From: Ianthella basta
Taxonomy: Eukaryota; Porifera; Demospongiae; Verongiida; Ianthellidae
Assembly (NCBI GenBank): GCA_964019415.1
Contig: OZ025880.1
Location: 4,270,813 to 4,334,812 of the forward strand
Length of the DNA stretch: 64,000 nt
Reading direction: 5' to 3'
Numbering within the stretch: position 1 is the stretch's first letter; each line of letters opens with the position of its first letter. Of this stretch, positions 15,918 through 54,170 are shown in pieces. Both the position numbers and the translations under genes were made by a program. The notes beneath the pieces are model-generated. The model did no database searches. It was not told the DNA's origin and saw only the letters and a program-made list of their open reading frames with translations.

Positions 15918-18900
15918 TTAAGCCAAACTAGACAGCGAAAGCATGACTAGCAGAATGATACTCCACACAGCAACAGCGACTGGAGTGGCGCCACTAGTAC
16001 CATCGAAGCATTCAGAGCTATCCACCTTGGCTGCATGGGAGACAACACATACACAGGATGCTTCAGCCATGGACCTCCTAGGAAGGCAGTAGCTTGCAAT
16101 TGTATATTACATTTATGTCAAAAAGGTGTCATTTTATGCATGTACTGACATATGCGTTGTCAGTGAGTTACTGTACGTACTGCAATTTATTGGGATGAAA
16201 GTTGGCGGGAACACTTCAATCTGGGGTCCAGCAGCAGATACATTTGCCTGAGATAGAATTTAGATATAAACATGATAATGTTGAAACCCTATGCAAATAA
16301 TCTTAGGAATTAATATCAATACAAGACTACATGAGTTAAATCTAAATTTACCCAAACATGGCACAACCATCATGACAACAAGTTTTATACAAAAGAGGAT
16401 GAAATGGCTTAGATTACAAGAATACCACCACATGTACTTCAATTCACTTGTGGGACCAAGTTTATTTGATTAAACATATCACCATGGAATTCCAACACAA
16501 GTTGTAGAGGGTGCATGGGACTAGCCACGATGTGTATTAGAAGCAGTGCCAATTTCTCTGTTCTTGTTACACTATTTCGCCATCTGATCTTAATCTTACT
16601 TCTTAGGGCAGCCATCTGCTGGGAACTGAAGGAATACTTAAAGTGACAAGCACGCATTTCCAGCAAGATGTAAAGTCTGTGACGTAATCACATTAACTAC
16701 ACACACACTATCCCAGCAACTTATGTATATATAATTATAGTATTCATCATTACATGCACTCTGCTGGCACATACATCTACAGGGATTTAGAATTAGGCAA
16801 CAAGCATTGGAATGCTTTTCTTGTAGATCTAGAATCATTGTAAAGATGCACCTTAGCCTGGCAGCATAGTCCATGCAAATAATGTAATATATGATGGTGT
16901 ACGGCTTTTCGCATTAGCATTTCAGTGGCACCCTGCAAGCGAGCAACGGTCTGATTGCAAATGTCACATTCAAAGTCTAGTGAGTTAACTTTGTCAACTG
17001 ACATCTCAGTTGGCAGCCAGAGTACCACACACATTGCACTGCATTTTAAACAACAACTTTCAGCAGCTTATATTTCCACAGTACTTATCATTGAGACAGT
17101 CATGCTATTGAATCTGTTCATGGATGAATAACAGTTGACAGGAAGTTTGCAATATAGCACAGTATACTTAGTAGCTTGATCCTTCCTTTGGATGACCAAG
17201 CACACCAGGAAACACTTGCCAATTCAATAAGGCATTATGCCTATTACGGGCTTCATCAGGCATACAAACTAACAAGTGCTTCCCGGTGTGCTTGATCTTC
17301 CAAAAGAATGATCAATTGCAAGCTATCAACTCAGCATGCCTAATAACTTTCACGACAGCACATATATTTTGCTGTCAGATTGTAAGTGACTGGACGCATA
17401 TATATCAGTGGAACCTGTCTAAGATGTTCACTGTGTTACAGGGCCGTAGCACCGGGATAAAAACCAGCCAGGCCATAGATGACATGACACAAACTAGGGG
17501 GCTGCGGGCATGCCCCCAGGAAAATTTTGAAATTTAGATGTTCTGTGAGTACTTTTGGAGCAGTTCTAGGCCCATCAACACTCCAATGAGTACGAAAAAA
17601 TGTAACATAGACCAACAGGCACTTACAGCAGGAAAGGCGATCAAGTGCCATGTAACAAGTAATACGGTGCATTGAAATAAGAAGATAGCGCATTAAAAAT
17701 TGAAATCTAGTGGTTTTTTGGCTGTCTCTCCGATGCTAGGCAGCAGAAATCTCTCCTTCCCTTGACTATAAGACACAATCAATGCAAAGGGTGTGTAAAA
17801 TGTTTCCTCCAGAAACAGGAGGAGGGCCGGTCCATGCAAAGACGGGGGCCAGCCTAGCCGGTCCGTGCGACAAGGAGGGCTGGTCCATGCAAAACCCAGG
17901 TCATTAACATGTGCTGACTTTGAATACGTTTTTACCATCCCTACATCTGCCTACATTTTGCCGCGCTTGCGGTCTTGCTACCATACCCTGTTTCTCCACC
18001 TACGTATTATAGTGCAATTGTTCATGTGAGTGTGCAATAGCTAGGGTTGCCACAGGAGACTACGTATCCTATTGCATGCATATGCCCATTCAAGCTACGT
18101 ACATGTTCCCATGTACAAATATACACCACCATGCTACATGCCTACATCCATGTACAGCGAATTTATGCAACCTTACAACAGTTCCCATACCTGCCTAGTT
18201 GTTACCTAGGATACGAACAGGGTGGTATATAATAGGTGACTACAGTACCAGTCCGTACCCTAGGTAACAACTGTCCATGGTGTGGGAACTGTTGCAAGGT
18301 TGCATAAATCTGCTGTACATGGCTGAAGCGCTACTGTGCTGTCTGATTTTGCACGGCGATCGATTAATGCATCATTTTAAGCATCAGAAAACGTCAAAAA
18401 CGTCATGCGCATCTGTAAAATGGCTGCCGCCATTAAGGTTGGTTAGAGGATTAAGTATCTGGCTATTCCTTGTTCAAACTAAGTCCTGCAACAATGTAAC
18501 AAGACCACTTTGCTTTTAGAACGTTGTTTAACCTTAGGCCAGTACCCCCTTCCCAATTTGAAAGTGTGTTTAGAATGCATATCTTCATTATTTAGAATTT
18601 TCGTTCCAGCAGCAAAAACCGGTCGGACTGGGTGCTACGGCCCTGTGTTAGGCAGCCATCTCTCTAAGATAGCCAGACTCCCTGGCCCCGAAAAGCACTA
18701 AGACATTGCAATCTACCTCATTAGAACAGCCACCTCTCTTTAAAAGTCAGTTATAACTGGTGCACAGGTGGTTGTCTTAGACAGGTTTCACTGCATCACT
18801 TCAGGCACCATAAATCATAACTAGCTAACTAATACTACAGTCAACTGAGTAGACACATTTGGTGTACTTACCCCAAAAAAGACGCCATTTCCTCGATTTT

Positions 18901-21900
18901 CTATCGTAGCTGATACAAGCACAGTCACTGTAGCAGACAGTACGGTAAGTTCAAAACTGTCCTCAAATGACTGGTTGGACTGTCTCCCAAACAGTTCTTG
19001 GCTGGTGACAGTTAAAATACGGCTACCAATAACATGAATAGGGGCATCCAAGTTGCCATCATGGCATGGCAGCAAACTAAACTCCGATACTATGGCTAAC
19101 GGGAAACCAGAAACCATGATTGCAAGGGAACAGTTCAGGTCCAAGCAGTTCTCGCAGATGTTGGATCCATTTACTGTATACACACACTCGCTACCAGGCA
19201 AGCGTGCCTTAATGAATTGGCTGACATTATTCATGGCTGCACACACATCTTGGATGTTCTCTGCAAAAATACAGTGAAGGCAGAAGATACATGCGTAATG
19301 TGAAAGAGGCTCATGGCTACATTGAAATAAGCATACAAGTGAGTGGCCTTCAGCTACATCTGCTCTGTGCCACTTCATACATAAAATTCCCCCAGGCTGG
19401 AGCTCATACTCTAGCCAAAGCATGCAGAGCTGCACTGGTATTCCTCATCCTCGCAAGGCCTGACACCAATGAGAGGTTCAGGTTGCATGTGAGAATGAAC
19501 GTTTCACATCAATATTAACCCCTATCATTGTACAACACCTGTGCACTTACAGTTTCTGAATAATCACTCTCTGCTATGAGAAATCTTGCCAACAATGGCC
19601 ATGATAAAATTGCATAAACAATAGATGTGGCATGTGAACTGCTCACTTTTTGTATATTCTTCTATGTTACCCTAACTACGCATGTGACTCGTTTGAGAAC
19701 ATGCGGTCAAACAGACATTGTCAATCTCACACTCATTCACGGCTGTTTTGCACTATATAAATGGCAGAAACTTAGTTTGGAATGGACACCAGGAACGAGG
19801 AAAATTGGGTTTCTTGAGAGAAAGACTCTCACGATATATTTAGCCTTTTCTCTTGGGACACTTCAAGAAGTGACAGTTTACTTGACAAGGAAGTATAAAT
19901 GACATAAGTCGAGTGTGCTATAGTCAAGTTAGCCTGCTTAGTGCTCTCCTGGCAGCAAGATAATCGCCGTTACTTGCAGCACTTAATCGTCCTATAGCAA
20001 ACATTTTGGAGTTTTCTTGCCAGTTTGCTGGGTATCGAGGGACAGCCTAAGAAGTGCTGAACACTGCCCTGTATAGCGTTTTCTGCTGCCTTTTCCATAC
20101 TTCAAGTTTCGAGCGCCTTTATTAACACAGTATTTTGCCATATTGTAGCATAGGCCTATAAATATGGCCTCGGCGATCATTGGAATAGACGTTCGTATTC
20201 AGCCTTTTTCTCATCGGACACCGAAGCAATCTTTACCGAACGGTGTACAGGCATAGAACAGATACCAGGCGAGTGTGATATAATCCAATAAGCCTGCTTT
20301 GCACTCTCTGGGCAGCAAGATAATGACTTTTCACTGGCGGTACTAAATTGCTACATAACGCACCTGTCCCAGTTCTCCAGCCAGTTTACTGTGTATTGAC
20401 GAAAAGCTGAAAAGTACAGAACACTGTACTATATTGCAAATTCTGCTGCCACATTCGTACATCACATTTCAAAAGCCTTTATATTAATGTTTTCCGCCAT
20501 ATTTATAGGCCAATGCTACAATATGGCGAAAACAGTGTTAATAAAGGCATTCTAAACTTGAAGTACAAAAAAGGCAGCAAAATATGCTATAAAGGACAGT
20601 GTTCAGCACTTCTTTGGCTGTCCTTCAATACCCAGCAAACTGGCAGGAAAACTCGGAGATGTTCGCTATAGGGCGATTAATTGCCGCATATAACAGCGAT
20701 TATCTTGCTGCCAGGAGAGCGTAAAGCAGGCTAAGATGACTACAGCACGATTGCCATGTGTCAGTTGTATGCCAGTGCATGTTAAACTTGAGATTGCTTC
20801 TGTGTGTTCAATGGGGAGAAGGCTAAAAACGACCTATGTTACAACGGTAGGCCATCCCAATCCCAGTTCCCAGTTAGGATTTGGGAAAACTAAGTTTCAA
20901 CCTCGAAACAGCAGTGCATTGCACCCTCGCTCAATCTATTGACCTTGACTTTCACTCACCCCTGCTCAGGTTATATAGTCCAAGTACTGCTAACAAACGC
21001 TGCCGATCACTGGGTTAACTAACTCATCAGACGACTCTGGATCAGAGTAGAGCTAAACTGCTAAAGCTAACAGATTCCCTAACCCTAGTCTGCAGGTGAG
21101 GTAACCTAGGTTTACACATACACCTGCATAACATGTACACATACACACGCATATGCATGTGCAAACACAGAATCATGTGCATACAAAGACATGTGTACTT
21201 GCATCTATACATTGTGAGCATAAAACACATTAACTCTGCCTCCTTCCATCTGTGCAGGCCACAACTACATAGCGTGCCTCTGGTTGTTGAGAACAACAAG
21301 CTAATCTCCTCTGGTGTTATTTTGGAAATTGGAGCAGTCTACTGTCCGGTCCAGTAGTGCAGTCCTCTCCAGTGAATGGGGACATCTGCTGTGATGTTCA
21401 AGATGTAGGCAGTTACTTGTACTCTCTTAGACTATGGCTAGCCATATGTAACAAATTCTCAGCACATGGCACGTTGCCAACTAGTCATTATAAGCTAGCA
21501 CAGAATTAATAACGGTGGACAAGTAGCTACTGGCTTTAAAACGTAGTGAGTACATGAGCTTGGTAAGAAAAGTTGAAACAGCTGAAAGACACAAGACTAG
21601 TACAAAGGCTACACACTGAAGAACATGTAGGGAAAGACAGGGAGGGAAGGAAGTAGACGTAGCTAGCTGTGTGTGCAGGTGCTTTAGACAACATTTGTAT
21701 TCACCCTAAACAATTACAGCATTACACACAATAATATTAGCTATAAATATATGAGATTGACTGACTGATTAGAGTACACCTGATTCTGAGTGAATACAAA
21801 TTCGGAAATGTAGCTACGTAGCTTAGCAGCTAGCTATATAGAGTTCGGGTAACGGTGTAATGGCTATGGCGGTGAGCGAATGAAGTCAGGTGCTTAGAGA

Positions 21901-22074
21901 GACGGCATGTAGCTAGTAGCTCGCTCACAAGCAAAATTAAGGGACCGGTTCCGATCTCGAAGACCATGGTCGTCCAGTGACCACGGGGCACTTACCGACT
22001 TTGATGGCTTTGTTGTCGCCAATCGCAGCACCAATAGCAAGAAAAGACAAAAGAATCACAACAATGTACTCCAT
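15918..22074 (-). CDS. Gene A: secreted, probably GPI-anchored Cys-rich protein of an unrecognised family (215 aa)
   Basis: Four exons are 21996-22074, 18872-19260, 16181-16247 and 15918-16030 (648 nt, phases 1-0-1, all GT-AG). Exon 1 encodes a signal peptide (MEYIVVILLSFLAIGAAIG). Exon 2 encodes the family domain: NIQDVCAAMNNVSQFI, CVYTVNGSN, a CENCLDLNC core, LLPCHDGNLD, LFGRQSNQSFEDSF and a closing ENRGNGVFF. Exon 3 encodes EVFPPTFIPINC. Exon 4 has SSECF, a short spacer and a hydrophobic C-terminus (VWSIILLVMLSLSSLA) ending at a stop, as in a GPI-attachment signal. There is no cytoplasmic tail. The function is unknown; a cell-surface protein is inferred. The start is fixed by the signal peptide shared with the paralogues. 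Confidence 0.85.
17406..18793. mobile_element. pogo-like MITE interrupted by another DNA element
   Basis: The MITE ends (cagtggaacctgtct / agacaggtttcactg) at 17406 and 18793 are separated by the nested insertion 17439-18645. The uninterrupted sister copy is at 31232-31407 in the second segmental duplicate. Confidence 0.8.
17439..18645. mobile_element. 1207-bp TIR DNA transposon, non-autonomous, with 5-bp TSD
   Basis: The element begins CAGGGCCGTAGCACC and ends with its inverse, GGTGCTACGGCCCTG. It is flanked by TGTTA on both sides (17434-17438 and 18646-18650). The allelic empty site in the sister duplicate reads ACTGTGTTAGGC. There is no transposase frame. Inside lies a further inverted repeat of about 65 bp (about 18120-18330). 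The superfamily is uncertain; CAGGG ends suggest hAT-like. Confidence 0.85.
19911..20742. mobile_element. Fold-back element with about 230-bp inverted arms (copy 1)
   Basis: The arm 19911-20152 ('agcctgcttagtgctctcc...gccatattgtagc') returns inverted at 20512-20742. A third, more diverged direct copy lies between them (about 20270-20500). The same arrangement is repeated at about 32517-33300. Confidence 0.8.
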
Positions 22075-22140
22075 GACCAGTATGACCAGATGGACAGCCC
22101 AAATGAAATGTTACATAGGGACCATAGACACACTCGTTAG

Positions 22141-22182
22141 TCCATAGATAGAGGAAAGAAGAGTTCTTTCCTCTATCTATGG
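22141..22182. repeat. 41-bp near-perfect hairpin just upstream of gene A
   Basis: Two 19-bp arms (ccatagatagaggaaagaa and its inverse) surround a 3-nt loop. The insert is flanked by TTAG on each side and is absent from the orthologous site upstream of gene B, so it is a recent insertion in the promoter/5' UTR. Confidence 0.9.
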
Positions 22183-22250
22183 TTAGTCTATGGGCGGAGT
22201 CTGTGTACAGATTAGCGGATATCGGTCTCCCCGGAAGTACATTCCTAAAG

Positions 22251-22687: not shown

Positions 22688-24060
22688 CAATTAATCAATC
22701 AATCAATCACCACAGCTTATCTCCTATGCAGGAGGTCGCCGCTATCTTTACAGTATTTAACAATTTATGACATTGTTATAGTTCAGTGTAACATCTATGC
22801 ATAGTCTATAGTCAATATGTAGTATTATTCAAATCTGTAGCTAGAAACTGTCAATCCATTTCTTTCTAGGTCTTCCTCTTGGCCTTTTCCCTGCAATTTC
22901 CTCAGTGTACACCGTCTTCACTAATCTGTTGTCTTCCATCTGCTCCAGCTTCTCCTTCCATGCTCTTCGTTTCCTTTGTACTTTCTCCATCACCTCCTCT
23001 TGTCCAACTGCCTCTCTCACATCTGCATTTCTTACTCGGTCCATCCTTGTCACTCCTTCGACTCTTCTCAGGTAAGCCATCTCTGTTGCCCCTAGTCTGC
23101 TCTCATGTCTCTTCATCACTGTCCATGTCTCACTGCCATACAGCATGGTTGGTAGCACTATCGCATTGTACACCCTCATCTTCGTAGCTTTCTTCAACTC
23201 CTTCCTTTCCAACACCTCCTTCCGCATTGCTCCTATCACTCTGGCTGCTGCTCCCACTCTCTGTTCAATTTCCTCTTCACAAGTCCCATCTGCACTCAGG
23301 ATAGCTCCTAGGTATTTCATATTCTGCACTTGTTCTATCTCTTCCCCATCCACACACACTTTGCATTCTTCTCCTTTCCTACTAACCATCATCACTTTAG
23401 TCTTGCCCCAACGTATCTTCATTCCCCAGTTACTCATTGCCTTCTTCAACTCCCTCAAATTTGCCTCCATGTCCTCCTTCCTCTCTGTTAGTAGTATCAC
23501 GTCATCTGCAAATAGCACTACACCCACTTCAGTAGTTGACATCTTCACACCTCCAACAAAATTCTCCATTCCTTCCCTCACTATCTTATCCATGAAAACA
23601 TTAAACAGCCATGGTGACATGACACAGCCCTGCCTCACTCCTTGTGTTATTGGGAACCAGCTTGACAATTCATCCTTTACTCTGACACACCCTTCACTCT
23701 TCTTGTACAATGATCTAATGGCCCTCAGCAGTCTTCCCTTCACACCATATTCCTCTAGCAATAACTTATCTTTACCCACCCTGTCATACGCCTTTTCCAA
23801 ATCCACACATCCCACCACGATCTTCTTGTTCTTCTCTATCATCTTCTCACTCAATTGTCTTATGGTAAAGAGCTGATCCGTGCAACTTCTGCCCTTTCTA
23901 AAGCCCCCCGAGCCTCAAGTACCTTGCTCTCTGTCACGCTTTTTATCCTTTCATCCAGTATCCTAGAGGATCTAGCTGGGCAGAAATCCACTTTTTGCAC
24001 AATCAGCCTCGGTAGGAATAAGACTATTGATGCATACTGCGATGATGCACCATCACAATA
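22688..24060 (-). mobile_element. 5'-truncated LINE with reverse transcriptase (one frameshift)
   Basis: The main frame 22841-23854 encodes the RT palm and C-terminus. It includes VGCVDLEKAYDRV, ITQGVRQGCVMSPWLFNVFMD, the catalytic FADD box (VVLFADDVILLTER), MKYLGAILSADGTCEEEI, TMLYGSETWT and the terminal GKRPRGRPRKKWID. The upstream part (SVTESKVLEARG / GFRKGRSCTDQLFT) lies in another frame because of a slip in a G run near 23910. The 3' end is a (GATT)n tail on the minus strand near 22688-22707. The RT type resembles RTE-like or related LINEs. The endonuclease domain is absent. Confidence 0.9.
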
Positions 24061-29631: not shown

Positions 29632-32600
29632 TTAAGCCAAACTAGACAGCGAAAGCATGACTAGCAGAATGATACTCCACACAGCAACAGCGACTGGAGT
29701 GGCACCACTAGTACCGTCGACGTCGAAGCACTCAGAGCTATCCACCTTGGCTGCATGGGAGACAACACATATATACACACAATGCCTCTGCCAAGGACCT
29801 CCTAGGAAGGCAATAGCTTGCAATTATTGTACGTTACATTTATGAAGAAAGGTGCCACTTTACGTATGTACAGACAAAAGTAGCTATGTGCATGTATTGC
29901 ATAAGTCACATGCATGTGTCAGTGAGTTACATACTGCAATTTATTGGGATGAAAGTTGGCGGGAACACTTCAATCTGGGATCCAACAGCAGATACATTTG
30001 CCTGAGATAGAAGTTAAATAAAACATGATAATATGGAAATTCTGTGCAAAAATCTTAGTTAATAATATCAATGTAAGACCACGAGTCAAATCTGAATTCA
30101 CCCAAACATGGCACAACCATGACAACAGGTTTTATACAAAAGAGGATGAAATGGCTTAGATTACAAGAATACCACCACATATACTTCAATTCACTTGTGG
30201 GACCAAGTTCATTTGATTAAACATATCACCATGGAATTCCAACACAATTATGTTGTAGAGGGTGCATGGGACTAGCCATGATGTGTATTAGAAGCAGTGC
30301 AGGTACGTAGCACTACTGTATTTAGGGCAAAGTAGTAAGGCTATATGGCTTTAGTGGACTTAGCTATCTGCCAATTTCTCTGTTCTTGTTACACTATTTC
30401 GCCATCTGATCTTAATCTTACTTCTTAGGGCAGCCATCTGCTGGGAACTGAAGGAATACTTAAAGTGACAACCACACATTTTCAGCAAGATGTAAAGTCT
30501 GTGACATAATCACATTAACTACACACACACTATCCCAGCAACTTATGTATAATTATAGTATTCATCATTACATGCACTCTGCTGGCACATACATCTACAG
30601 GGATTTAGAATGAGGCAACAAGCATTGGAATGCTTTTCTTGTAGATCTAGAATCATTGTAAAAATGCACCTTAGCCTGGCAGTATAGTCCATGCAAATAA
30701 CATAATATATGATGGTATACGGCTTTTCGCATTAGCATTTCAGTGGCACCCTGCAAGCGAGCAATGGTCTGATTGCAAATGTCACATTCAAAGTCTAGTA
30801 AGTTAACTTTGCCAACTGACATCTCAGTTGGCAGCCAGAGTACCACACACATTGCACTGCATTTTACTTTAAACTACAACTTTTAGCAGCTTATATTTTC
30901 ACTGTACTTATCGTTGATACAGTCATGCTATTGAATCTGTTCATGGATGAATAACAGTTGACAGGAAGTTTGCAATATAGCACAGTATACTTAGTAGCTT
31001 GATCCTTCCTTTGGATGACCAAGCACACCAGGAAACACTTGCCAATTCTATGAGGCATTATCATGCCTATTACGGGCTTCATCAGGCATACAAACTAACA
31101 AGTGCTTCCCGGTGTGCTTGATCTTCCAAAAGAATGATCAATTGCAAGCTATCAACTCAGCATGCCTAACAGCTTTCACGACAGCACATATATTTTGCTG
31201 TCAGATTGTAAGTGACTGGACGCATATATATCAGTGGAACCTGTCTAAGATGTTCACTGTGTTAGGCAACCACCTCTCTAAGATAGCTAGACTCCCTGGC
31301 CCCGAAAAGCACTAAAAGATTGCAATCTACCTCTGTAGAACAGCCACTTCTCTATAAAAGTCAGTTATAACTGGTGCACAGGTGGTTGTCGTAGACAGGT
31401 TTCACTGCATAACTTCAGTCACCATAAATCATAGTAGCGAACTAATACTACAGTCAACTGAGCAGACACATTTGGTGTACTTACCCGAAAAAAGACACCA
31501 TTTCCTCGATTTTCGATCGTAGCTGATACAAGCACAGTCACTGTACCAAATACAGAAATGTCAAAACTGTCCTCAAATGACTGATTGGACTGCCTCCCAA
31601 ACAGTTCTTGGCTGGTGACAGTTAAAATACGGCTACCAATAACATGAATAGGGACATCCAAGTTGCCATCATGGCATGGCAGCAAACTAAACTCCGATAC
31701 TATGGTTAACTGGTTACCAAAGATTGCAAGGGAACAGTTCAGGTCCAAGCAGTTCTCGCAGACATTGGATCCATTTACTGTATACACACATTCGCTATCA
31801 GGCAAGCCTGCCTCAATGAATTGGCTGACATTATTCATGGCTGCACACACATCTTGGATGTTCTCTGCAAAAATACAGTGAAGGCAGAAGATACATGTGT
31901 AATGTGAAAGAGGCTCATGGCTACATTGAAATAAGTATACAAGTGAGTGGCCTTCAGCTACATCTGCTCTGTGCCACTTCATACATAAAATTCCCCCAGG
32001 CTGGAGCTCAAACTCCAGCCAAAGCATGCAGAGCTGTACTGGTATTCCTCATCCTCGCAAGGCTTGACACCAATGAGAGGTTCAGGTTGCACGTGAGAAT
32101 GAAAGTTTCATATTAATATGAACCCCTATTATTGTACAACACCTGTGCACTTACAGTTTCTGAATAATCACTCTCTGCTATGAGAAATCTTGCCAACAAT
32201 GGCCATGATAAAATTGCATAAACAATAGATGTGGCATGTGAACTGCTCACTTTTTGTATATTCTTCTATGTTACCATAACTATGCGTGTGACTCGTTTGA
32301 TAACATGCAGTCAAACAGCCATTGTCAATCTCACACTCATTCACGGCTGTTTTGCACTATATAAATGGCAGAAACTTAGTTTGGAATGGACACTAGGAAT
32401 GAGGAAAATTGGGTTTCTTGAGGGAAAGACTCTCATGATATATTTAGCCTTTTTCTTTTCGGACACTTCAAGAAGTGACAGTTTACTTGACAAGGAAGTA
32501 TAAATGACATAAGTCGAGTGTGCTATAGTCAAGTTAGCCTGCTTAGTGCTCTCCTGGCAGCAAGATAATTGCTGTTACTTGCAGCACTTAATCGTCCTAT

Positions 32601-35585: not shown

Positions 35586-38500
35586 TTAGTAATACAAGCT
35601 GGCGAATGAGAGCACAGCTAGCAACATGATGGTCCACACAGCAGTCGCCGGTGGTGGAGACCCTGCATTACCAGCAGTCCCTGCCTGCTGCGATGTTGGA
35701 GTTGGTGTCCCAGCACTTGTTGTTGTTGGAGTCATTACACGTGTTGTTGTTGTTGCCGCTGCATTTGTTGTTGTTGGTGTCCCTACACTTGTGGTTGCAA
35801 TTGGTGGAGTCCCTACATGTGTTGTTGTTGGTGTCCTAGTGATTGTTGTTGTTGGAGTCATTACACTTGTTGTTGTTGCTGCTACAATTGTTGTTGTTGG
35901 TGTCCCACCATTTGTTGTTGGTGGAGTCCCTACACTTGTAGTTGGTGGTGCAGGAGTTGACGACTCACTACTGCTATCGATGCTGCCGAAGCACACAGAT
36001 CTATCCACTTCAGCTGCACAAGAGGACAATATGCACACACATTAAACAAAGTTAATGCTAAAATAATACTGAACAAATTAATACTTTAAATTTGCTCTTA
36101 GATCAACACAGAGAGCAAGTTTTATTATTATTCTCAACACATTGGACCAGACATCACAAGGTAAATCCTGCATGGAGGTGCTTACTGCATGTTATCGGGA
36201 TGAATGTTAGTGGGAAAACTTCGATATTCGATCCAGAAGCAGCTGCACTGGCCTGCAGCAGAAGTGAATACATGCAAACATATTATTATAATAAGCACAA
36301 GTGAATTAAATGATGTTCAGTGAGGAGAAAAATTGCTACGAACGTGTCTCCAGTAGCATAAATATACATCGCACCTCTTTAGAACCCTATACTGTATAGA
36401 AGTAGGATATACTGGTAACATTAATAACTCAACAGGTACAGTACTTAACAACTGAATAATTTTTGCAACAATTACGCTGAGACAATTTTATAACGCAGAG
36501 CTCTGCATGCCTTTTCATTCTCTTCACTAATATATACATACAATTGTCAGTCTGCACAGCAAAGCCTAATGGAATTAAAGAAGCATTCTTCCCACTCTTG
36601 CTTACCTGAGTGGAGACACCATTTCCTTGGTTGTCAATAGTAACTGATACATCCACTGGCACTGAAAGTGTACCAAAGATTGTAGAAACGCGAACTGTAA
36701 AACTGTCACTATAGGACTGGTCAGACTGCCTACTAAAGAGTACTTGGCCACTTGAATCCAAGATTCTTGTATTAATGGCATGCCTGGGGACATTCAAGTT
36801 ACCATCGTGGCACGGCAGCACACTGACTTCGGATTTGACAGTAATTGTAGCAATTGATGCTGTAATTGGAATGGTACAGTTCAGGTCCAGGCAGTTTTTG
36901 CAGGCATCAGGACCATTCCTCAAATATACACAATCACTCCCAGATGCACTTGTCTCAATGTGTTGGCTAACACCATCAATGGCATCACACACGCCCTGGA
37001 TGTTCTCTGCAGCAATATAAATTAGATTGGGTACTAATAAATGTGATTAGTAAAAAGTTACTTCAAGTCAGTCTGAATAGGGGTCATCTGAGAATACTAG
37101 CTATGTAAGATTGTTATACAACTCAGAATGAAGAGAGAGCCACAAAAAGGGACATCATTGAAGGGACCAGGTTGCATGTGAAAAATCGTGCAATTAATGT
37201 TTCAAAATCAATATGAAATATCCCTTATCATTTTACTAGTCATGTGTATTTACAGTTTCTGAATAACTGCTCTCTGCTAGCTGTTGCAAGAAATTTTGCC
37301 ATCAAAGACCACAGTAAGACGTCTCACAAACCATAATTTTATGTAGTATGGCAAGTGAACCGTTCAGTTGTGCAAGATGTAGACAGTGACTATAGCCACC
37401 TCCCAGTATATGTCTCTTACTGTACCTAGCTACATAGCTATAGCTACCCTGGCACCATTTGTACACATCAAAATATATAATACTGAGATAGGTGTATAAT
37501 TAATGTAGAAACAGGAACTTAAAGATCACTGTTGATAATCACATACCACATGGCTGCTGAATTTTCTGGGAGGCCCTATCAGCCAAAGCATTTGATTTGA
37601 GCGTATAATGCTATCATAATACATTACTCTATGGCAGCAAAACGTGGACACTACAGACCATGCAGGCATATGAAAAAGCTGCAGGCAACAAATATGAGAT
37701 ACTGAGGAAAGTTGAGGATGTGATGAGAATGGATTGGCTGAGAAGTAATAACATTATAGAGAGACTTACATAGGCAGCTAAAAATATGTTCTAGAGACTG
37801 CAGTAAGAAAGGAGAGGCAATAGAAGGGGAAGATTGATGAAAAGCCAGAGTAGATATCGGTAAAGGCTGTGCATATAGAGGAGATGCCAGGAAAGAGGCC
37901 AAGATGGAGCCCACAAATACGATGGGAAGATGACTTGATTTGATAATGTATACATAACTACATGAACCAATTATAGGCATATTATTATTAAAACTTTTCC
38001 AGTAGGCTTGTATGTATTCTAGCTATACCTCCTGCATATATAGGGTAAAGAGCTATAGTATACTGTTGGCAGCTGCAGATCGATTGATTTGATTGAGTTT
38101 GATATCCCAAGTACGGCCTGCTCAGAAGTCTCATGCTGCAGTGCCTCTGCATCCTACATTGCCACTTTTCTTGCTTCTTACCATGTATTCATATGGCATA
38201 ATTTCCATTCAGGCTTTACCCCCCCCCACACACACCTAACATGATTACAACCATTCACCATTTATTCAGTGCCTATATTATAACTATATTATGGTCAGTT
38301 ATGTATTCATCATAATTATGGCGTGAGTGATGATTATGGTAGCTACATCTGAACACAATTTCGGTGAACAAAGGAAACTATAGCTCGGTGCTTAGAGAGC
38401 AAGTGGTCACGTATTCGTAGTAAGAGGTTAAATTGTTTTTATGACCTTGCAAGCCATGGTTAGCTATGTACAGTCTATTGCTTGCCAGCGTAGGCTACGT

Positions 38501-41220
38501 GTGTAGCTAGAGTGGTAGCTAGCACTAGCTACTGTACCACTCTAGCTACACACGTAGGAAGCGTGCCCACCGTCGCACTTACCGACTTCGATAGTTCTGT
38601 TGTCCCCTATCGCCGTGCCCCAGGCGAGAAGAGAGAGGCGCGCTCTTCAGCAACATCCAAACGCTTCACTGACTTCTTGAAAACATGGATGCCGTCACAA
38701 CAACCCCCTGGGGTAGAATGCACCAAGAAGAGCAAGGAAATACTACGACGGGGGATAAAGCATCCTAGTTTATTTTAACCGGGGGGATACAAAATCGGAG
38801 GGATCGAATAAACCATGACACCAGATAGATAGGAGAAGGAGATGGTAGTAGATAGGGCGGAGGCTGGGAGAAGGGCTCTGGGAGCCTGTTTTCAAAGGTG
38901 TCGGGCAGAGATTGGTAATATGACAGTTGGTAGAATTAGGAAGTTAATGGGCTCGCTGATTGAGTCGACCTTGATGTATGGGGCTGAGATTTGGTGATGT
39001 AGTAGACATTTGGAAGCTATTGAGCAGGTTCAACTACGTGTCCTCCGAATGTTTTTTGGTGTGGGCACACTTCACCCCAAGACATCCCTATGGTTTGAAA
39101 TGGAGATGATGCCCTTGGTGTGGAAGGCGAAGATGCGGTGTGTGCAATTCTGGCTGAAGGTGATGAGTACTGAGGCATACGAGGGCAGGTTACTGAGGAA
39201 GATTGCTAGACACTCTGTGGGATGTGGTAAGGGTGCCTGGGTGAAGAGCATGGCTAAGTGTGTTGGTGACTTTGGGTGGAGTGGTATGGGAGTGGATGCG
39301 GTGAAGATTCTGTCTGATTCAGAGATTCAGGAGATGTTGGAGAGTGTTGCATGGAGGAGGGTGACGTCAATGATGAAAGAGGACATGGAAGACAAGCCAA
39401 AGCTGAGTGTACTCAGAGAGATTGCTGATCGTAAGCTAGAATCGAGCTGTGCATTGGTGAAGGTGAAGAGGGAGAGGACGATGTTAATGAAATTAAGAGG
39501 AGGTACAGCAGCATTTCAGAACAAGGTTGGGAGATGGCAAGGAGTGACAAGGGATGACAGAGTTTGCAGAGTGTCAGAGTGCAGAAGTTGAGGATGTCTG
39601 CCATTGGCTGCTACAATGCCCTGCCTGGGACCACATCAGACGGCCCCCGCTTACACAGCCTGGGATGGACATCTGGCCACAGGGGACCTCTATTAGGAAG
39701 CGGACTGCCATCATTCTGTACGCAGCTTGTACCAACACTAGTATTATGAAATGCATCAGATCCATGTGGTGTGCCCGTTTTGGTCTATGACTCTATTATT
39801 CATGTAACAACCTCCTTCACATGTCCATGTTCAGTCGTACCTTTGTGATAGTGCTACACTGGACCGATTTGTGTCCAAGCACCTCCTGGTGCAGTGCACT
39901 CTAATAATGATTGATTGATTGATAGTGACAAGTCGGATAGAAACGTCTGCAGCGTTGAAGAACATTTGTTCGTCTTTCTTGTCCACTACCTCCGGGCCTA
40001 GTGAGCTGTACGTTAGACATAAGGAAGTTTCGCGTTAGCTATTTGCACTGCAATTGCTTTCATGAACGTCCGCAAACCCGCGAAGATCACCTAACTTCAT
40101 TGTTGCTAATTTGACATCATAAAGCTACACAAGCTCACTTAACCGGAAGTGCCCTCTGTGTAATGGCCCCCTCTGCAACGTGCAGCACATGTCGTACTGC
40201 TGCCCAACAGCCATGACAGATGGCAGGTACACATGGCGCCATGACATGGTGCTCACCGCCCTACTCCCATTCTTGCAGAAGTTCAATCCAGAAGCCTCCG
40301 TCTATGCAGACCTGCCGGATCACAGGGCATGCGAATCTCCTCCAGCAACCATTTCCCCCACCATCATTGGGACCACTGCTCGGCCAGATCTCTTTATTGT
40401 GGATGGTAAATGTGCGACCATGTTGGAACTCACTGTGCCCTGGAACAACCTCACTAGCATCAAGAATGCTAGAGCTCGGAAGCAGGGGAAGACCAACTAC
40501 CAGCTTTTGGCTTCAGACCTATCCCTAACCCTGCCTAACCCTGCTCACAATCGAGATTGGCTGCTTAGGCCACTACACACACAAGGCCTATACGGCTCTA
40601 AGACTTGCTGCCCCCCAGAGCAAATTTTAAAGCCTCTGACAGACGTAAAGCCCTGACTGACGTGGCAAAAGCAGCCATCTCTGCATGGTAGCTACACAAT
40701 CTTTTCAGCCCACAAATCACCCTGGAACTTGGATGCCAGATGCCCAAATGGAGACTGAGCCCCAATTGACCACCAAATATGCCCATCAATCACTGTTTTC
40801 TTATGTTATGTTTAATGTATTGTTCACATGTAGCTAGCACTACCATCCCCTCACATATCCACGTATTACTTGCCTATAATTATATCCCCCAAATTGTATC
40901 CCCATACAGTCCGTTTGTTCCCTAAACCTATGTTTTCCCCACTTTGTCCCCTCTAGTTTTTTCTCCCCCTTATCTTGCCAGGGCTTTCTCTAGCAATGCA
41001 TTTTCTACTGCATAGCAACCTGTAACCCCGTGTTTGAGGTTCTAACCCCTTTTCTATCACACCATTATCACTGATTGTATACCCCTGTTTGAATAATGAT
41101 GTGGTCCCCCCTGTATACAGGCAAAGATTTATGTTCCTTACCAACTCTGATTACTTTGTTTTCACCTGTTGCAGCACCACTGACAAGAAGTGACAAGAGG
41201 ACCACAACTGCGTACTCCAT
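35586..41220 (-). CDS. Gene C: family member with long Thr/Pro-rich stalk and GPI-type tail (324 aa)
   Basis: Exons are 41142-41220 (signal peptide MEYAVVVLLSLLVSGAATG), 36606-37006 (domain), 36186-36252 and 35586-36013, totalling 975 nt with phases 1-0-1. The domain has CVYLRNGPD, CKNCLDLNC, LLPCH-type VLPCHDGNLN, LFSRQSDQSYSDSF and TIDNQGNGVSTQ. The last exon has VCFGS, then about 95 residues of Thr/Pro/Ala-rich repeats (PTTTSVGTP-like, a mucin-type O-glycosylated stalk by inference), then a hydrophobic GPI-type end (VWTIMLLAVLSFASLYY). Intron 1 holds two LINE insertions. An alternative first exon of identical design lies at 44677-44755, so this gene may have two promoters. Which one is used is not shown by sequence. 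Confidence 0.8.
37620..37945 (+). pseudogene. LINE reverse-transcriptase C-terminal relic
   Basis: A frame starting LLYGSKTWTLQ is followed by NKYEILRKVEDVMRMDW. It is similar to the LYGSETWT...MDRVRN tail of the LINE at 22841-23854 and is broken by several stops. It lies in intron 1 of gene C. Confidence 0.65.
38330..38820. repeat. Duplicated block P, copy 1
   Basis: This block matches 43630-43830 plus 44130-44425. It includes the fold-back 'ctacgtgtgtagctagagtgg' and a decayed signal-peptide exon at 38586-38662. Confidence 0.85.
38586..38662 (-). pseudogene. Decayed signal-peptide exon of the Cys-rich family
   Basis: On the minus strand one frame reads LSLLAWGTAIGDNRTIEVG and ends at a GTAAGT donor in the family phase, exactly as in real first exons. 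That frame meets a stop before any ATG, while the ATG present is one base out of frame. It is therefore a frameshifted copy or a non-coding relic. Confidence 0.6.
38831..39924 (+). mobile_element. 5'-truncated LINE (RT C-terminus and zinc-knuckle-like end), frameshifted
   Basis: The frame before 39010 reads VDRAEAGRRALGACFQRC and LIESTLMYGAEIW, then a stop. The frame 39010-39591 continues with EQVQLRVLRMFFGVG and a long C-terminal region. The end EVEDVCHWLLQCPAWDHIR (C...H...C pattern) is in another frame (39554-39790). The element ends in (TGAT)n. The orthologous empty site at about 44426 defines the insertion limits. It has no catalytic RT motif, so it is dead. Confidence 0.85.
40140..41110 (+). 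mobile_element. 3' fragment of a non-LTR element with restriction-like endonuclease (R2/NeSL-like)
   Basis: The frame 40153-40656 encodes a Cys/His cluster (CPLCNGPLCNVQHMSYCC), then YTWRHDMVLTALLPFL, then RPDLFIVDGKCATMLELTVPW. This is the layout of the CCHC plus PD-(D/E)XK endonuclease at the C-terminus of R2-type LINEs. The rest to 41110 is 3' UTR. The insertion is absent at the duplicate site (44639-44645). The RT domain is missing. Confidence 0.75.
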
Positions 41221-44755: not shown

Positions 44756-44881
44756 ACTGAAGTAGTCTATCTCGTCCACACTGGAGTGTGTGCATGCCAC
44801 AGCAGTACTTGTAGCTATAGTAATTGATATCAATGTGAAACTTGGGTGTAAAGTGGGAAATACTGTAACTCGTTGTGTATA

Positions 44882-46774: not shown

Positions 46775-48186
46775 ATGGAGTACACAGTTGTGGTCCTCTT
46801 GTCTATTCTCACTGCTGGCTCTGCAGTGGGCACAAACACTGCTATCAAAGTCGGTAAGGGATCTCTTTGAATACGTATACAAATGCAATGTGGAGAATAT
46901 ATACATTCTGGCTATAGTTGGCAGCATACACACCAGTTATGTATTTTGTTCTGATGTGTGTTATTGCAGTGAACATCCAGGATGTGTGTGCAGCTGTAAG
47001 CGATGTCAGCCAACACATTGAGACAAGTCTGCCTGAGAGCAAGTGCATGTATTCGGTGAATGCTTCCAATGCCTGCAAGAACTGTTTGGACCTGAACTGT
47101 TCTATTGTAGTCCGATACTATGGTTTCAGGGTTGCCCTTACATCAGAAGTCAGAGTGTTGCCGTGCCACAATGGCAACTTAGACAGTCCCATGCACGCCT
47201 TTGCTAGCCGAATTTTAGATGAGAATGGCCGAGAACTCTTTGAGAGGCAGTCTATCCAGTCCTTTGATGACAGATTTGAAGTCAGCATCCGCGCATTCAT
47301 TTTTACTTTTTCAGTGCCGGTGGATGTATCAGTCATGATTGACAATCAAGGGGATGGTATCTTTGTTCAGGTAGGCATATAGTATATAAGCTCTTATGGG
47401 GAAACACTGCATGGATGTAGACAGTATAGTAGCTGGTAGTAGGCAGTTTTGAATGTAGTTTGACTTTGTGTCCCTAGCTCAGACATTATGGAAATGATCA
47501 TAAGCAAATTTTAAGCTAGAGTCTATCAACACGTACAATGGTGTGTTATGCATTGTATTCTAAATGTCAAATGCAGTGAAGTGAGTGAATGCAGTAAACG
47601 GCTTTCACTCATTCTTGAGTAAATTTAGAGTACACTGAGTTTTATATATTAGTCAGAATTCAGTGTTTCTTAACTCCTGGGGATTCTTTTATCTATGGCC
47701 ATGTACTGTAGACGATAGAATGAATGATTCATCTTTCAGTAAGAATAATACCCATGTATATATATACAACTTCGACAAGAGTCAGTGTGCGAATTCAGTC
47801 AATTTCAACTCATCTTCTTAAATTACTATCATATACATGTGCTGTATTCTTTCTATTGCATTTTTGTTGCAGGTAGATACATTGGTTTATGGCTCTCGAT
47901 ATGTTGTTTTCCCACCGAAATTTATACCAATAAAGTGCTGTAAGTGGATGGACATAATATTGACTTGCGTACAACTATCTGCATATAATTATATATGGAC
48001 TATAGGCTGTATAATTATGCATAATTATACATGCATGTGTATTACTATACAACTGCAACTAAAGTCCCTCTATATAATATTATATGGATTCCAGAGGTCC
48101 AGAGAATGTGCATTATGCTAATCTTGTTGTCTTCCCCTGCAGCCATGGTGAATACATCTGAGTGCTTTCCCAGCAGTCATAAGTAG
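46775..48186 (+). CDS. Gene E: family member on the opposite strand, lacking the membrane anchor (196 aa)
   Basis: Exons are 46775-46853, 46970-47370, 47873-47939 and 48143-48186 (591 nt, phases 1-0-1). The signal peptide is MEYTVVVLLSILTAGSAVG. The domain has NIQDVCAAVSDVSQHIE, CMYSVNASN, CKNCLDLNC, VLPCHNGNLD, LFERQSIQSFDDRF and MIDNQGDGIFVQ. Exon 3 encodes VVFPPKFIPIKC. The last exon keeps the NTSECF equivalent but stops four codons after the serines, with no stalk and no hydrophobic end. The product is predicted to be secreted rather than anchored. It is the most diverged member and the only one on the plus strand. Introns are much shorter than in its relatives. Confidence 0.85.
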
Positions 48187-48857: not shown

Positions 48858-51800
48858 TTAATTTTGAGAGCTAGCCACTGAGAGCATAGCTAGCAGCATG
48901 ACGATCCACACAGCAGTCGCCGGTGGTGGGGTCCCTGCATTACCAGCAGACCCTGCATGCTGCGATGTTGGAGTTGGAGTCGCTGCAATTGTTGTTGTTG
49001 GAGTCGCTGCACTTGTTGTTGCAGTAGCTGGTGTCTCTGCAGCACTTGTTGGCCTCAGAGTCCCGACACTTGTTGTTGGTGGAGTCCCGGCACTTGTTGG
49101 TGTTGGAGTGCTTGCACTTGCAGTTGTTGGAGTAGAAGTTGGAGACTCACTACTGCTATCGATGCCGCCAAAGCATACAGATCTATCCACTTCAGCTGCA
49201 CAAGATAACAAGACAGGAAATAAGCAAAATTAATACTTTTGCTCTTAGATCATATTAGAGGGGAAGTTTAGCTATATATTCTTACATATATTTACAGATA
49301 TGGGCCAAGCTCAATAAAATGCAAATCATCGTCAATGACCCTGCTTACTACATGTTATTGGGATGAATGTTAGTGGGAAAACTTCATGTTGTGATCCTTG
49401 AGCAGTTACACTGGCCTGCAACAGAAGTGAACAGAAACAGCAAATATTACAATAAGACCTAAATGAATATTTCATTTCATCCATTAAACACAGTTCAGTA
49501 GGAGAAAAACTTGTAACAAACTTGTCTTTGTAGTAGCATAATACAATGCACCTCTTTGCAGATCCTACTGTGTAGGTACCAGTGTATAATTAATATGTAA
49601 CATTCACAGTTTTACAGGCACTTAAACAATTAAATGTTTTATAAACAATAATTGCAGCAATGAATATATCACTGTTGAGACAATCGTATGCCTGGCAGAA
49701 CTATATTGAGTGTGCCATTTCATTCTGCTCAAACATTATACTATGATCATGCATACTTACAGTTGTCTATATCTGACAGCAAATCCTATAAGTGAGATGG
49801 TCACAGAAGTATATATTCTTCCCCCTCTTGCAATTGCTTACCTGGGTAGAGACACCATTTCCTTGGTTGTTAATGGTAGCTGATACATCCACTGGCACCG
49901 AAAGTGTACCAAAGATTGTAGAAACGCGAACTGTAAAACTGTCACTATAGGACTGGTCAGACTGCCTACTAAAGAGTACTTGGCCACTTGAATCCAAGAT
50001 TCTTGTATTAATGGCATGCCTGGGGACATTCAAGTTACCATCGTGGCACGGCAGCACACTGACTTCGGATTTGACAGTAATTGTAGCAATTGATGCTGTA
50101 ATTGGAATGGTACAGTTCAGGTCCAGGCAGTTTTTGCAGGCATCAGGACCATTCCTCAAATATACACAATCACTCCCAGATACACTTGTCTCAATGTGTT
50201 GGCTGACACTATCAATGGCTTCACACACACCCTGGATGTTCTCTGCAGCAATAAAAATATGATTGGGTACACTAACAAGCTTGCTCATTATAGTGAAACC
50301 TCTATAGCTACTTCCAAGACAGTCTGAGTGGTGGTCAGGCCTGAAAGACTCATGCAGACTGGCAGAGTTGTACTGCTGCAGTAGAATTACTATCATGGAT
50401 AGGCTTCTTTAGATGTATTGCAGATTGCAATGTACCCAAAGAAAGCCTGGAGTACACGTAAGAGAAAAGCGGCATCGGCTGTTCGTACCCCATTTTGTCT
50501 TCATATTCTCGTTTCCGCTGATGTTTTGCGCGTTCCTAGCGCACGACACAGGGCACTTACGGACGTGAAGGACCAGGATCTGAGGGACAGTGGCAATATA
50601 ATAGGTACAGCGCTGAGTCGGATTTCCGGTGCCGCCGTTTTGATCTGATAATATACCGTTCAGTAAGACGGCCGCCGGTTCTTCTGGAGTGGCATAACTC
50701 TGTTCGATGTTCTGCACATTCTTCATCTAATTTAAGGAAGGTGTATTAGTCAGCGCAGATATTAATCTGATGTAGCCATAGTCTTTTGGATATGCAAAAA
50801 CTGTACAAAGTCCGACAAACTACTGTAGCTAGCCATTAAATTCGATTCGATATTTAGGAATGGCCAGCAGAAAAGCATATAGAAACAAGAAACAGTAACC
50901 CAACACCATGATAAACCTCATTTCCGTGAAGTTGGCTCTACATTCCTAATTTCCCTGTAGCTACTAGGGATTAGCTAGCTAGACATTTGGGTCCATGCAT
51001 GCTACAATGATAGGAATTTAGCTAGCTAGAGCGAATTTCACGGAAATGTGGTTTATTAATCATGGTGTTGGCATGCATGGGGAGTACAATTTCTTGTTTC
51101 TATGCTTTTCTGCTGGCCATTCCTAAATCTCTTTTAATTCTAAGAAATTTTTTGTGCACAAGTAAATGAGAAGGAGTACTAGTGTTCCTAATAATAAGGC
51201 TGTACATACATTAACCTGAAAGGGAATTGTTTGCAGTTAAGCACTGCAGAGACAATAGATTGAATGGTCATCACCGGATATAATGAAAGCCAGCTGTCTG
51301 TGGCTCTTCCATCTTTGTTGGATGACTGGGGAGAGGCGATCACTGGTTGCATCTCAATGGAGCTTCATGCCCCCACCAACTGAGGCATGCACCAATATAG
51401 ACCGCTGCAGCATGTGGCATGGTTGGGCATAATATAATTTATATCCAAAAGTAACCATTCAATACATTAGCCTTTTTTATATACAATAATGCAAACCATT
51501 ACAAGGGGTGAGCTGATGATAAAGACAGAAACATGCAAAAGTCTAGTTCACAATACAATAACTGCATGAATGTGATAGTGATTGGGAGAATATAGAGTTA
51601 AGCAAGAAAATAGACAAAGTACATAGTCAGTTTATTTACTTATTTCTCTTTGTAATTGTCTCCTACAAGCTACCCAGTTCGGTTTGTCATTTTTAAGGCT
51701 ATCTGAATTCATCTTATTCCATATTTCAGGAATTCTTCCTCAGTAGCTTCTTCTAAAAATCTCTAATGATTTCGTAGTGATATGGGATTGTAGTTGAGGT

Positions 51801-54170
51801 TGTGAGACTTCGTTGATGCTACTCTGGCTGATCTGCGTGGCTTCACTTTGCTGGAGTCTTCAAATTCAGGGGTAAGTGATTTCAGTGGTGTCTTGGTGTC
51901 TCCATGCAGATGTTTGCATGTAAGACCTACTGCAGCCGCTTGTCTTCTCTGCTCCAATGTACTGATGGGCAGTTGACCAAACATGTTGTGTGCCTGCTCT
52001 TGGACTCTGTCCAATTTGTCCAGATTGGTCTTTGCTGCACTCCAGTACACAAGGTTCCCATATACTCTAGCTTCTGGCGGACAAATGCTGTGTAAGCTGT
52101 GTGGAGGCCACTATCGTCAAGGTACCTTCTCGCTCGTCTTATGGCTCCTAGTCTTTGCCTTGCCTCAGTTGCAATTCTGTCGACATGAGGTGACCATGTT
52201 CCTTTGCTGTCCAAGGTAAAACCGAGAACATCGATCTGAAAGGTAGCCCTTCAGAAGAGCAAGTGCTCTTCCTCTAATGCCTATTGACTGCAAGTGTGCC
52301 AGTAGATCTCTCCACCATACACGGTCAAATGCACCTCTGATGTCAAGTGCTACTACTCGGAGTTCTTCACGTGCTTCAAGTGCAGTAGCAACCTCATCAG
52401 CAATGATGACTCCAACATCAGCAGTTCCTGTTCATGGTACAAATCCAAATTGCTCATCTGGGATGTACGGCAGGAGACAACTTCTTAGTTGAGGAAGGAG
52501 GACCCTTTCAAATGTTGTTGAGAGGGTGGGCAGCACTGATATTGGTCTATAGTTGGAAGGCAATGTTGATGGCCCCTTCTTATGGATCGGGGTGACACGA
52601 GCAATTTTCCAGGATTTTGGAAAAATCCCGGTCCTCATGATCTTCTGAAATAGTCGAGTGATGGGCCTTGAGAGTGGGCCGGCACATTGCTTAAGCACTC
52701 TAGGGCTTACACCGTCCAATCCAACTGATTTACTTTCATCCAGCTTCTTCAAAACAGTCCGGATTCGGTTCTGTTTCACTCTGAAGGTCCTCAGCACAGA
52801 TTCAAATTCTTCGTCAGGCAGATCTGGCAGCTCAGCAGATTCTTCATTAGGTATGCAAAATTTCTCAGTGAAGAACTTGGCAAGGGTGTCTGCTTTGGGG
52901 GTCACTGTTTGCTTCTTAGGTGCAAAGCCTGTGATGTCTTTTGTCATCTGCCACCAGTGCCTGGAGTTGGTGCCTTTTGCCAGTTTCTTTCTGATTCGAT
53001 TCTGGTGTTGGCAAAGAGCTTTGTTGTACACATGTGTGGCTTTCTTGCTCAATTTTGCATAGCTGGCCATGTCATTCCTTCTCCACGCTGCTTCTTTCTT
53101 TGACCATGCTTCCTGGCATCATCTGTCCCACCAAGGAAAGGGCCTGGTCATTATTGTGCTGGATCTTGGGATGAACTTGTTGGTAGCAGACACTATCTTT
53201 TCAGTAACAAATGCCACTGCTTCCTCAGTTCCGCTTGGAAGATCCCAACTAGTTGATCTAAACTCCCCAATCATGCGATTCCAGTTGGCCTGCTTCCAGT
53301 GGTAAACGGTTCATTTTGGTGCTGCAATGGGCAATTCTAGGATTCTGGTCAAGTTCGCCAGCAGGGTCTGGTGATCGGATGAGTCACAATGTGGAAGGTG
53401 GGTGACTGAGCCATCATACGGGCCAATGACCAGATCTAGGATTGCCTCACCCCGGGTAGGCCTCGATACCAATTGGAGCAAGCCCCTGGCCTCACAAAAC
53501 TCACGTGTAGCCTTGCCAGTAGCATCAGTTTTGGTTGATTTCAGCCATTCCTCGTCGTGTGCATTAAAGTCTCCAATCATCAGTACTTGTTGCTTTTTGT
53601 CTTTAGTGATTTCGTCATACAGTAATCCTAGTTGTTGAATCAGGGTTGTGTCGGAGGCAGAGGGTTGGATGTAGACACAAACCAGCGTTGTTGGACTGTC
53701 ACCCGGGATGGTTACCGTGCACATTTCAGCCTTTTCGCGTACATAGTACTTTGATACTGGGTAGTCGTCACACAAGGTGTCTTCTCGCACCATGATGATG
53801 ACTCCTATAGGAGCCTATAGGATTTCTGCACTTTCTATAGAAAGGATCTAAGCGGGGATTCTTCCCATAAACTTCATTGCTATAGCTAGTGTGTATATAC
53901 AGTAGAACTTCTCTATATGGTCACTGTGTAAAGCATGCAGCCACGTGCACCCCTCTAAATTAGCCAGCTTCCCTAGGCAAAGCAGCCACCTCTCTGTAAA
54001 GCAAAATTCAACTGGCCCTTAGCAGTTTTCATGGTAGTATGTACAGTGTGTACACATAGAGATCCATAGAGCAGTGTGTTCTTACCGACTTTGATAACTC
54101 TGTTTTCACCTTCTGTGGTACCACCAGCTGCAGCAAGAATTGACAAGAAGACCACAATGGTGTACTCCAT
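48858..54170 (-). CDS. Gene F: family member with Thr/Ala/Pro-rich stalk and GPI-type tail (296 aa)
   Basis: Exons are 54086-54170, 49842-50242, 49349-49415 and 48858-49195 (891 nt, phases 1-0-1). The first exon is two codons longer than usual (MEYTIVVFLSILAAAGG). The domain exon is very close to gene C's (CVYLRNGPD, CKNCLDLNC, VLPCHDGNLN, RQSDQSYSDSF, NNQGNGVSTQ). Exon 3 encodes EVFPLTFIPITC. The last exon has VCFGG, a Thr/Pro/Ala-rich stalk of about 60 residues (SASTPTPTSAGTPPTTS) and a GPI-type end (VWIVMLLAMLSVASS). Intron 1 (3.8 kb) contains a LINE and a pogo-like MITE fragment. Confidence 0.82.
50561..50726 (-). CDS. Possible orphan coding exon, unrecognised
   Basis: The minus strand has an open ATG frame beginning MKNVQNIEQSYATPEEPAAV. 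It is preceded by an AG acceptor-like site and followed by a GTAAGT donor after 166 nt (phase 1). The stretch is CpG-richer than its surroundings. In principle it could splice to gene F exon 2, which also enters in phase 1, but it has no signal peptide. Function is unknown. Confidence 0.3.
51740..53800 (-). mobile_element. CR1/Jockey-like LINE, internally deleted and frameshifted
   Basis: From 53793 to 53311 lies the C-terminal half of an APE-type endonuclease (VLMIGDFNAHDEEWL, LDLVIG, HCDSSDHQTLL). Frame 53070-52432 gives the RT start (SRHWWQMTKDI, SKSVGLDGVSPRVLKQC, SWKIARVTPIHKKG, NYRPISVLPTLS, FERVL). It continues in another frame with VVALDIRGAFDRVWW, then jumps to VLGFTLDSKGTWSPHVDRI. 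The FADD catalytic box is therefore deleted. The C-terminus runs to about 51763. It lies in intron 1 of gene F and is non-functional. Confidence 0.88.
53900..54030. mobile_element. Diverged pogo-like MITE fragment
   Basis: 'cagtagaacttctctatatgg' and 'gcagccacctctctgtaaagc' match the body of the MITEs at 2348, 17406 and 31232. Confidence 0.5.

Follow-up and report, generated by a model that had tools for sequence, protein, structure and literature searches.

What do genes do that carry the outer part of a receptor and end before its kinase? The question is raised by a locus of the demosponge Ianthella basta, a stretch of 64,000 nucleotides (nt) on contig OZ025880.1 (positions 4,270,813 to 4,334,812; hereafter the window), in which five genes, A, B, C and F on the minus strand and E on the plus strand, have models with outer limits at window positions 15918 and 54170. 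The original prediction had described them as a clustered family of secreted or glycosylphosphatidylinositol (GPI)-type proteins. The clustering, the secreted or GPI-type nature and the lack of a match in domain libraries stand; the family is not free-standing, since the same ectodomain heads nearby receptor tyrosine kinases (RTKs). We favour the interpretation, at a probability of about one half, that the kinase-less proteins are decoys that share a ligand with these RTKs, or co-receptors for them.

An ectodomain shared with receptor tyrosine kinases

A search of the whole genome (209,087,449 bases, 96 contigs) with four different seeds recovered at least 12 domain exons, all 12 on C13:4139979-4321055, within 181 kb of one chromosome. 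The family is therefore not confined to the window. A further weak match on C18 (E 0.4), which contains a stop, was excluded from the count. The 12 copies comprise seven kinase-less genes (A, B, C, E, F, H and I) and five RTK-type copies (n1–n5). Genes H and I follow the same four-exon plan as the window genes and are found on the same chromosome, to the left of the window and at a distance of 120-125 kb from its start.

Behind the domain exon, the RTK-type copies have a homologue of exon 3 and then a further exon, whose start resembles exon 4 as far as the eighth cysteine (Cys 8) and which continues into a transmembrane stretch with basic residues at its end. Such a transmembrane exon, its stretch identified by eye, is present behind all five copies, and kinase exons of one type follow in order behind four of them (n1, n2, n4 and n5), with the motifs HRDLACRN and DFG throughout and MAPE in all but n1. 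Exon chaining yielded full 11-exon models for two of the five, n2 (586 amino acids, C13:4154857-4160481) and n4 (582 amino acids, C13:4252695-4259831), a model without the signal exon for n1, and none for n5, whose signal exon was not found with the single motif searched. The n4 model is the nearest RTK model to the window genes, with 27 kb between its end and the last base of gene A. Against Pfam, the n2 model matched PF07714 (E 3.6e-83), and its ectodomain had no match above the cut-off. The n2 kinase part retrieved 912 PDB sequences at 1e-20 or better; the best match named was an EGFR chain (1.8e-84, in two stretches), and the PDGFRA, KIT, FGFR2 and insulin receptor kinases scored about 1e-52 to 1e-56. 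Both n2 and n4 are predicted to encode RTKs, each with a signal peptide, an ectodomain, a transmembrane stretch and a kinase with its catalytic motifs. The five genes of the window are not RTKs: none of their models extends beyond the tail, and four kinase queries at E 1e-3 returned no kinase match in the window.

When we aligned the seven kinase-less and five RTK-type ectodomains from exon 2 to Cys 8, 19 columns proved invariant, and all eight cysteines are among them. Members of the kinase-less branch are 47-94% identical to one another and those of the RTK-type branch 64-98%, and identity between the branches is 22-29%. A profile of the GPI branch finds the RTK branch at 2e-20 to 3.8e-16, and the reciprocal search finds the GPI branch at 2.1e-16 to 1.8e-12 (Z set to 20000 in both), and profile-profile comparison of the two branches with hhalign gave 99.0% probability over 155 columns. 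Exon borders and phases align between the two kinds of ectodomain, which diverge just past Cys 8, where a stalk or spacer with a GPI-type tail takes the place of the transmembrane stretch and kinase. The common ectodomain, exon borders, phases and eight cysteines together indicate that the window genes are kinase-less paralogues of an RTK family. As judged from their models, these genes would supply the structural half of what defines a decoy, namely the ectodomain of a signalling receptor without its signalling part.

The cysteine frame, which had been put at about eight residues, consists of exactly eight conserved cysteines, six encoded by exon 2, one by exon 3 and one by exon 4. Kinase-less genes share a CLDLNC motif where n1–n5 have CLWLNC. 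The VCxA motif ascribed to the family is present in the five window genes and gives way to VCAV in H and VCTV in I. The predicted GPI-type architecture applies to A, B, C and F: their last 18 residues, which end the protein, have a mean Kyte-Doolittle hydropathy of 1.5-2.3, and the combination of a signal peptide with this terminal hydrophobic tail makes the four proteins candidates for GPI anchoring. It does not extend to gene E, in which the same value is -0.37; the absence of a hydrophobic tail suggests that this protein is secreted rather than GPI-anchored. C and F have near-identical heads on stalks of different length.

No known domain had been recognised in the sequence, and searches of three kinds brought no secure match to light. 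Three of the five domain open reading frames had one weak Pfam match each (12-15 bits, against cut-offs near 25) and two had none; among the spliced proteins, A, C, E and I had no Pfam match and F had one, at E 0.28, and none of these matches reached a curated cut-off. Two domain profiles searched against PDB sequences found no match to the ectodomain. Two AlphaFold2 models of the domain exon have a helix at the N terminus and then eight strands (predicted local distance difference test scores of 72 and 68, predicted template modelling scores of 0.61 and 0.62); they omit exons 3 and 4 and with them the seventh and eighth cysteines. Four fold comparisons with these two models returned no secure match, and a new fold is not claimed. 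CapZ, Mediator, E2/UEV, actinoporin, SPLUNC and hemolysin chains appeared with middling Z scores in the match lists and were not used. Among the titles and abstract openings listed in searches of an open-licence library, there was neither a description of the eight-cysteine domain nor an RTK family clustered with a matching set of anchored paralogues that lack the kinase. Within the libraries searched, the ectodomain is undescribed.

Other members of the cluster depart from the pattern of n2 and n4. In n1 (C13:4244148-4250090) the frame of the signal exon is disrupted, two versions of the transmembrane exon are present and MALE stands in place of the MAPE of n2, n4 and n5; n1 is possibly a decaying or altered RTK. 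In n3 (C13:4141986-4131959) the signal, domain, third and transmembrane exon regions are 81-99% like those of n2 and are followed, on the same strand, by kinase exons of a different tyrosine kinase type (HRDIAARN; PF07714 on one exon), whose linkage to n3 is provisional; n3 may represent a recent swap of the ectodomain onto another RTK. A partial RTK copy at C13:4228048-4230469 has signal and kinase exons and no domain exon.

Coding constraint and relatives

A profile built from the 12 domain exons matched exactly 12 of 3155 open frames of at least 40 amino acids in a 260-kb region (E 1.5e-52 to 6.7e-61), a result that speaks to the completeness of the set and not to independent support, as the profile was made from the same exons. 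A control indicates that the short third exon is specific: downstream of each of the other six genes (B, C, E, F, H and I), the best candidate of 67 or 70 nt between AG and GT reaches a score of 49-106 against exon 3 of gene A, whereas 200 shuffled queries never score above 38.

We measured the ratio of nonsynonymous to synonymous substitution rates (dN/dS, Nei-Gojobori) in six kinase-less pairs: A-B 0.62, C-F 0.25, H-I 0.25, A-H 0.25, A-C 0.37 and E-C 0.46. The four older pairs have dS values of 0.7-1.2. These ratios argue that the translated sequence is under constraint, and the window genes look like real coding genes by this measure. The RTK-type pairs gave 0.69 (n1-n5), 0.65 (n4-n5), 0.78 (n4-n1) and 1.77 (n1-n2); n2-n3 has zero synonymous changes.

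We searched about 5.8 billion proteins, in a database clustered at 90% identity, with a profile and found 20 relatives; a deeper profile returned the same 20, in none of which a Pfam domain was found. Six are 95-100% identical to A, B, n1, n2, n4 and n5 and probably come from another assembly of the same species. Close copies of C, E, F, H and I are missing from the 20, through either spotty gene calling or real absence. By best identity to our genes, their C-terminal ends not being visible, six others (54-70%) side with the kinase-less group and seven (60-73%) with the RTK group; P0020, at a best identity of 39%, has an unsure position in the tree. In a tree of our 12 sequences and 12 of the 14 more distant ones (the shorter pieces P0013 and P0019 were left out), the kinase-less and RTK groups part with support of 100/99, the root serving for drawing only. 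Since relatives fall on both branches, the split is old, and both groups probably existed before the sources of these relatives parted.

Proposed decoy or co-receptor role and its rivals

Sponges possess many receptor-type tyrosine kinases. To our knowledge, the ectodomains and ligands of sponge RTKs are mostly unknown, and the cluster gives one such ectodomain a defined eight-cysteine frame, with signalling and kinase-less forms side by side. In the model that we favour, the kinase-less ectodomains would bind the same ligand as the RTKs, or a related one. Kinase-less proteins cannot signal, hence their proposed action as decoys or co-receptors, which A, B, C and F would exert on the cell surface and E in solution. 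They would in this way set the threshold or the specificity of RTK signalling in the sponge, and the Thr/Pro-rich stalks of C and F would hold the head clear of the membrane, level with its partners. If this holds, RTK control by decoys or paired receptors encoded by separate paralogous genes would exist in one of the earliest animal branches. It raises the question whether the ligand of a sponge RTK is something for which the GPI-type paralogues compete, something that they present, or the paralogues themselves. The kinds of component (an RTK, a GPI-type paralogue, a gene cluster) are already known, and the ectodomain is the undescribed part.

Four known receptor systems offer the closest parallels. 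RET is an RTK with GPI-anchored co-receptors, the GFR-alpha proteins, and resembles the sponge cluster in pairing an RTK with a GPI-anchored partner, a pairing proposed here for the sponge genes; GFR-alpha is not a paralogue of the RET ectodomain, whereas the sponge GPI-type proteins are paralogues of RTK ectodomains. The human TRAIL receptor genes are clustered. TRAIL-R3 is described as GPI-anchored, with five TAPE repeats and without an intracellular domain, and as able to counter TRAIL-R1 and TRAIL-R2 (PMC5876652). TRAIL-R3 (TNFRSF10C) parallels the kinase-less genes as an anchored paralogue that lacks the signalling domain and shares a cysteine-rich ectodomain with signalling receptors, and its repeated Thr/Ala/Pro-rich stalk resembles the Thr/Pro-rich stalks of C and F. 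We therefore consider it, by analogy, the nearest published counterpart in design. The parts differ, as TRAIL receptors combine TNF-receptor cysteine-rich repeats with death domains and the sponge cluster combines another, eight-cysteine domain with a tyrosine kinase; decoy action, too, is reported for TRAIL-R3 in that source and would be an extrapolation for the sponge genes. Shed soluble ectodomains of the TAM receptors, which are RTKs, can act as decoys (PMC11883011), but these are cut from the receptor, whereas the kinase-less sponge ectodomains are encoded by separate genes. The Venus kinase receptors, an invertebrate RTK family with an ectodomain of its own (PMC3703292), carry a Venus flytrap module, unlike the sponge ectodomain, which has no Pfam match.

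Several points weigh against the decoy or co-receptor model. With so little identity between the branches, a shared ligand does not follow from the shared frame. GPI attachment is predicted from the tail and splicing from the exon models, expression and ligand binding are presumed, and in both the n2 and n4 models the donor site behind the transmembrane stretch is provisional. When 8000 candidates were scored with the outer part of the RTK model (its first 230 residues), no RTK relative appeared at E <= 1, and those relatives that were inspected resemble genomic open frames running into introns rather than spliced transcripts.

The main rival, which we rate next and consider possible, is that the GPI-type or secreted proteins of a neighbouring cell bind the RTKs ectodomain to ectodomain, in trans, in a contact-dependent and possibly self/non-self recognition. 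Homologous ectodomains on anchored and signalling partners in one cluster would suit such a role, as would the differing stalks on the near-identical heads of C and F. The n1-n2 pair, with 17 nonsynonymous and 3 synonymous changes, and gene A, whose nearest copy (P0001) differs at 8 of 130 residues while that of gene B (P0004) is identical over 127, could also be read in its favour, although these counts are small and serve as leads only. Against it, n1, n2, n4 and n5 differ from their nearest copies at just 0-3 of 135-188 residues, and owing to the clustering of the database at 90% identity the closest allele may not be the one that represents its cluster. Also against it, the main text of a paper on the Amphimedon graft transcriptome contains neither 'receptor' nor 'tyrosine kinase' (PMC5450542). 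As a separate observation, four of the eight residues at which P0001 differs from A equal that of B (compared by eye), as gene conversion would give.

It is rather unlikely, in our judgement, that the GPI-type branch works independently of RTK signalling, perhaps in adhesion, in the binding of microbes or in the extracellular matrix. The age of the split, the low identity across it and the branch's own conserved CLDLNC would accord with such a role, but the cysteine frame, the exon frame and the clustering with the RTKs have all been retained. The role in recognition, adhesion or defence that had been suggested for the family remains hypothetical, and the part of its argument that relied on surface anchoring fails for one of the five genes, E. 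Less credible still is a full sponge recognition locus, in which RTKs would read GPI-anchored or secreted paralogues from neighbouring cells or tissue, and the identity of the paralogue and the length of its stalk would encode cell or individual identity. That the genes of the window lack a function and are duplicates in decay is highly improbable: retroelement pieces in intron 1 of F, the damaged RTK-type copies (the signal exon of n1 and the partial copy at 4228-4230k) and the finding that none of the 20 relatives exceeds 71% identity to C, E, F, H or I would fit decay, but all seven kinase-less models are open and have AG/GT borders, the six pairs show constraint, and relatives of the GPI branch are maintained elsewhere.

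Gene models and neighbouring sequence

The original four-exon plan, with its exon sizes and its intron phases of 1-0-1, was reproduced by our models for all five window genes (Table 1). Exon 3 has a constant length in these five and measures 70 nt in H. AG and GT flank every internal exon border, the donor of exon 1 in gene A is GTAAGT, and a similar signal exon is present in all seven kinase-less genes. Homology to the other genes set the borders of exons 3 and 4 of A, exon 4 of B and the exon-2 acceptor of F, replacing the different borders that automatic exon chaining had given at these places.

Table 1. Exons of the five kinase-less genes, in window positions
Feature	Position	Strand	Length (nt)	Remarks
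Gene A exon 1, signal peptide	21996..22074	-	79	phase 1 after
Gene A exon 2, domain	18872..19260	-	389	6 Cys
Gene A exon 3	16181..16247	-	67	Cys 7
Gene A exon 4	15918..16030	-	113	Cys 8, short spacer, hydrophobic GPI-type tail, stop; acceptor by homology
Gene B exon 1, signal peptide	34608..34686	-	79	
Gene B exon 2, domain	31485..31864	-	380	
Gene B exon 3	29935..30001	-	67	
Gene B exon 4	29632..29750	-	119	Cys 8, spacer, GPI-type tail; acceptor by homology
Gene C exon 1, signal peptide	41142..41220	-	79	
Gene C exon 2, domain	36606..37006	-	401	
Gene C exon 3	36186..36252	-	67	
Gene C exon 4	35586..36013	-	428	Cys 8, long Thr/Pro-rich stalk, GPI-type tail
Gene E exon 1, signal peptide	46775..46853	+	79	
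Gene E exon 2, domain	46970..47370	+	401	
Gene E exon 3	47873..47939	+	67	
Gene E exon 4	48143..48186	+	44	Cys 8-Phe, five codons, stop; no stalk or hydrophobic tail; additional exon possible
Gene F exon 1, signal peptide	54086..54170	-	85	
Gene F exon 2, domain	49842..50242	-	401	acceptor by homology to C
Gene F exon 3	49349..49415	-	67	
Gene F exon 4	48858..49195	-	338	Cys 8, Thr/Pro-rich stalk (shorter than that of C), GPI-type tail

Genes A and B align at 88-96% over most of their length. About 1.2 kb of intron 2 of gene A (window ~17438-18643) has no counterpart in gene B, which suggests a later insertion in A or a loss in B. A reverse transcriptase open frame (PF00078, E 4.2e-31) lies at window 22841-23914 on the minus strand, about 0.8 kb upstream of exon 1 of gene A, and intron 1 of gene F holds endonuclease and reverse-transcriptase fragments of a non-LTR (long terminal repeat) type element (window 52432-53814, minus strand).

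Outside the cluster, a neighbouring RTK-like gene on the plus strand (C13:4117847-4129246) combines an ALK/LTK glycine-rich domain (PF12810, E 1.9e-10) with tyrosine kinase exons. The mitochondrial contig C96 (21,233 bases) encodes atp9, the one gene on it with a library match (ATP-synt_C), in line with a sponge as the source; its other mitochondrial genes were named by inspection. Within the window, positions 1-9000 carry HEAT-repeat exons on the minus strand (PF02985 on 4283-4627) with long GT/CA microsatellites between them, and two similar exon sets, judged by eye, suggest a local duplication there.

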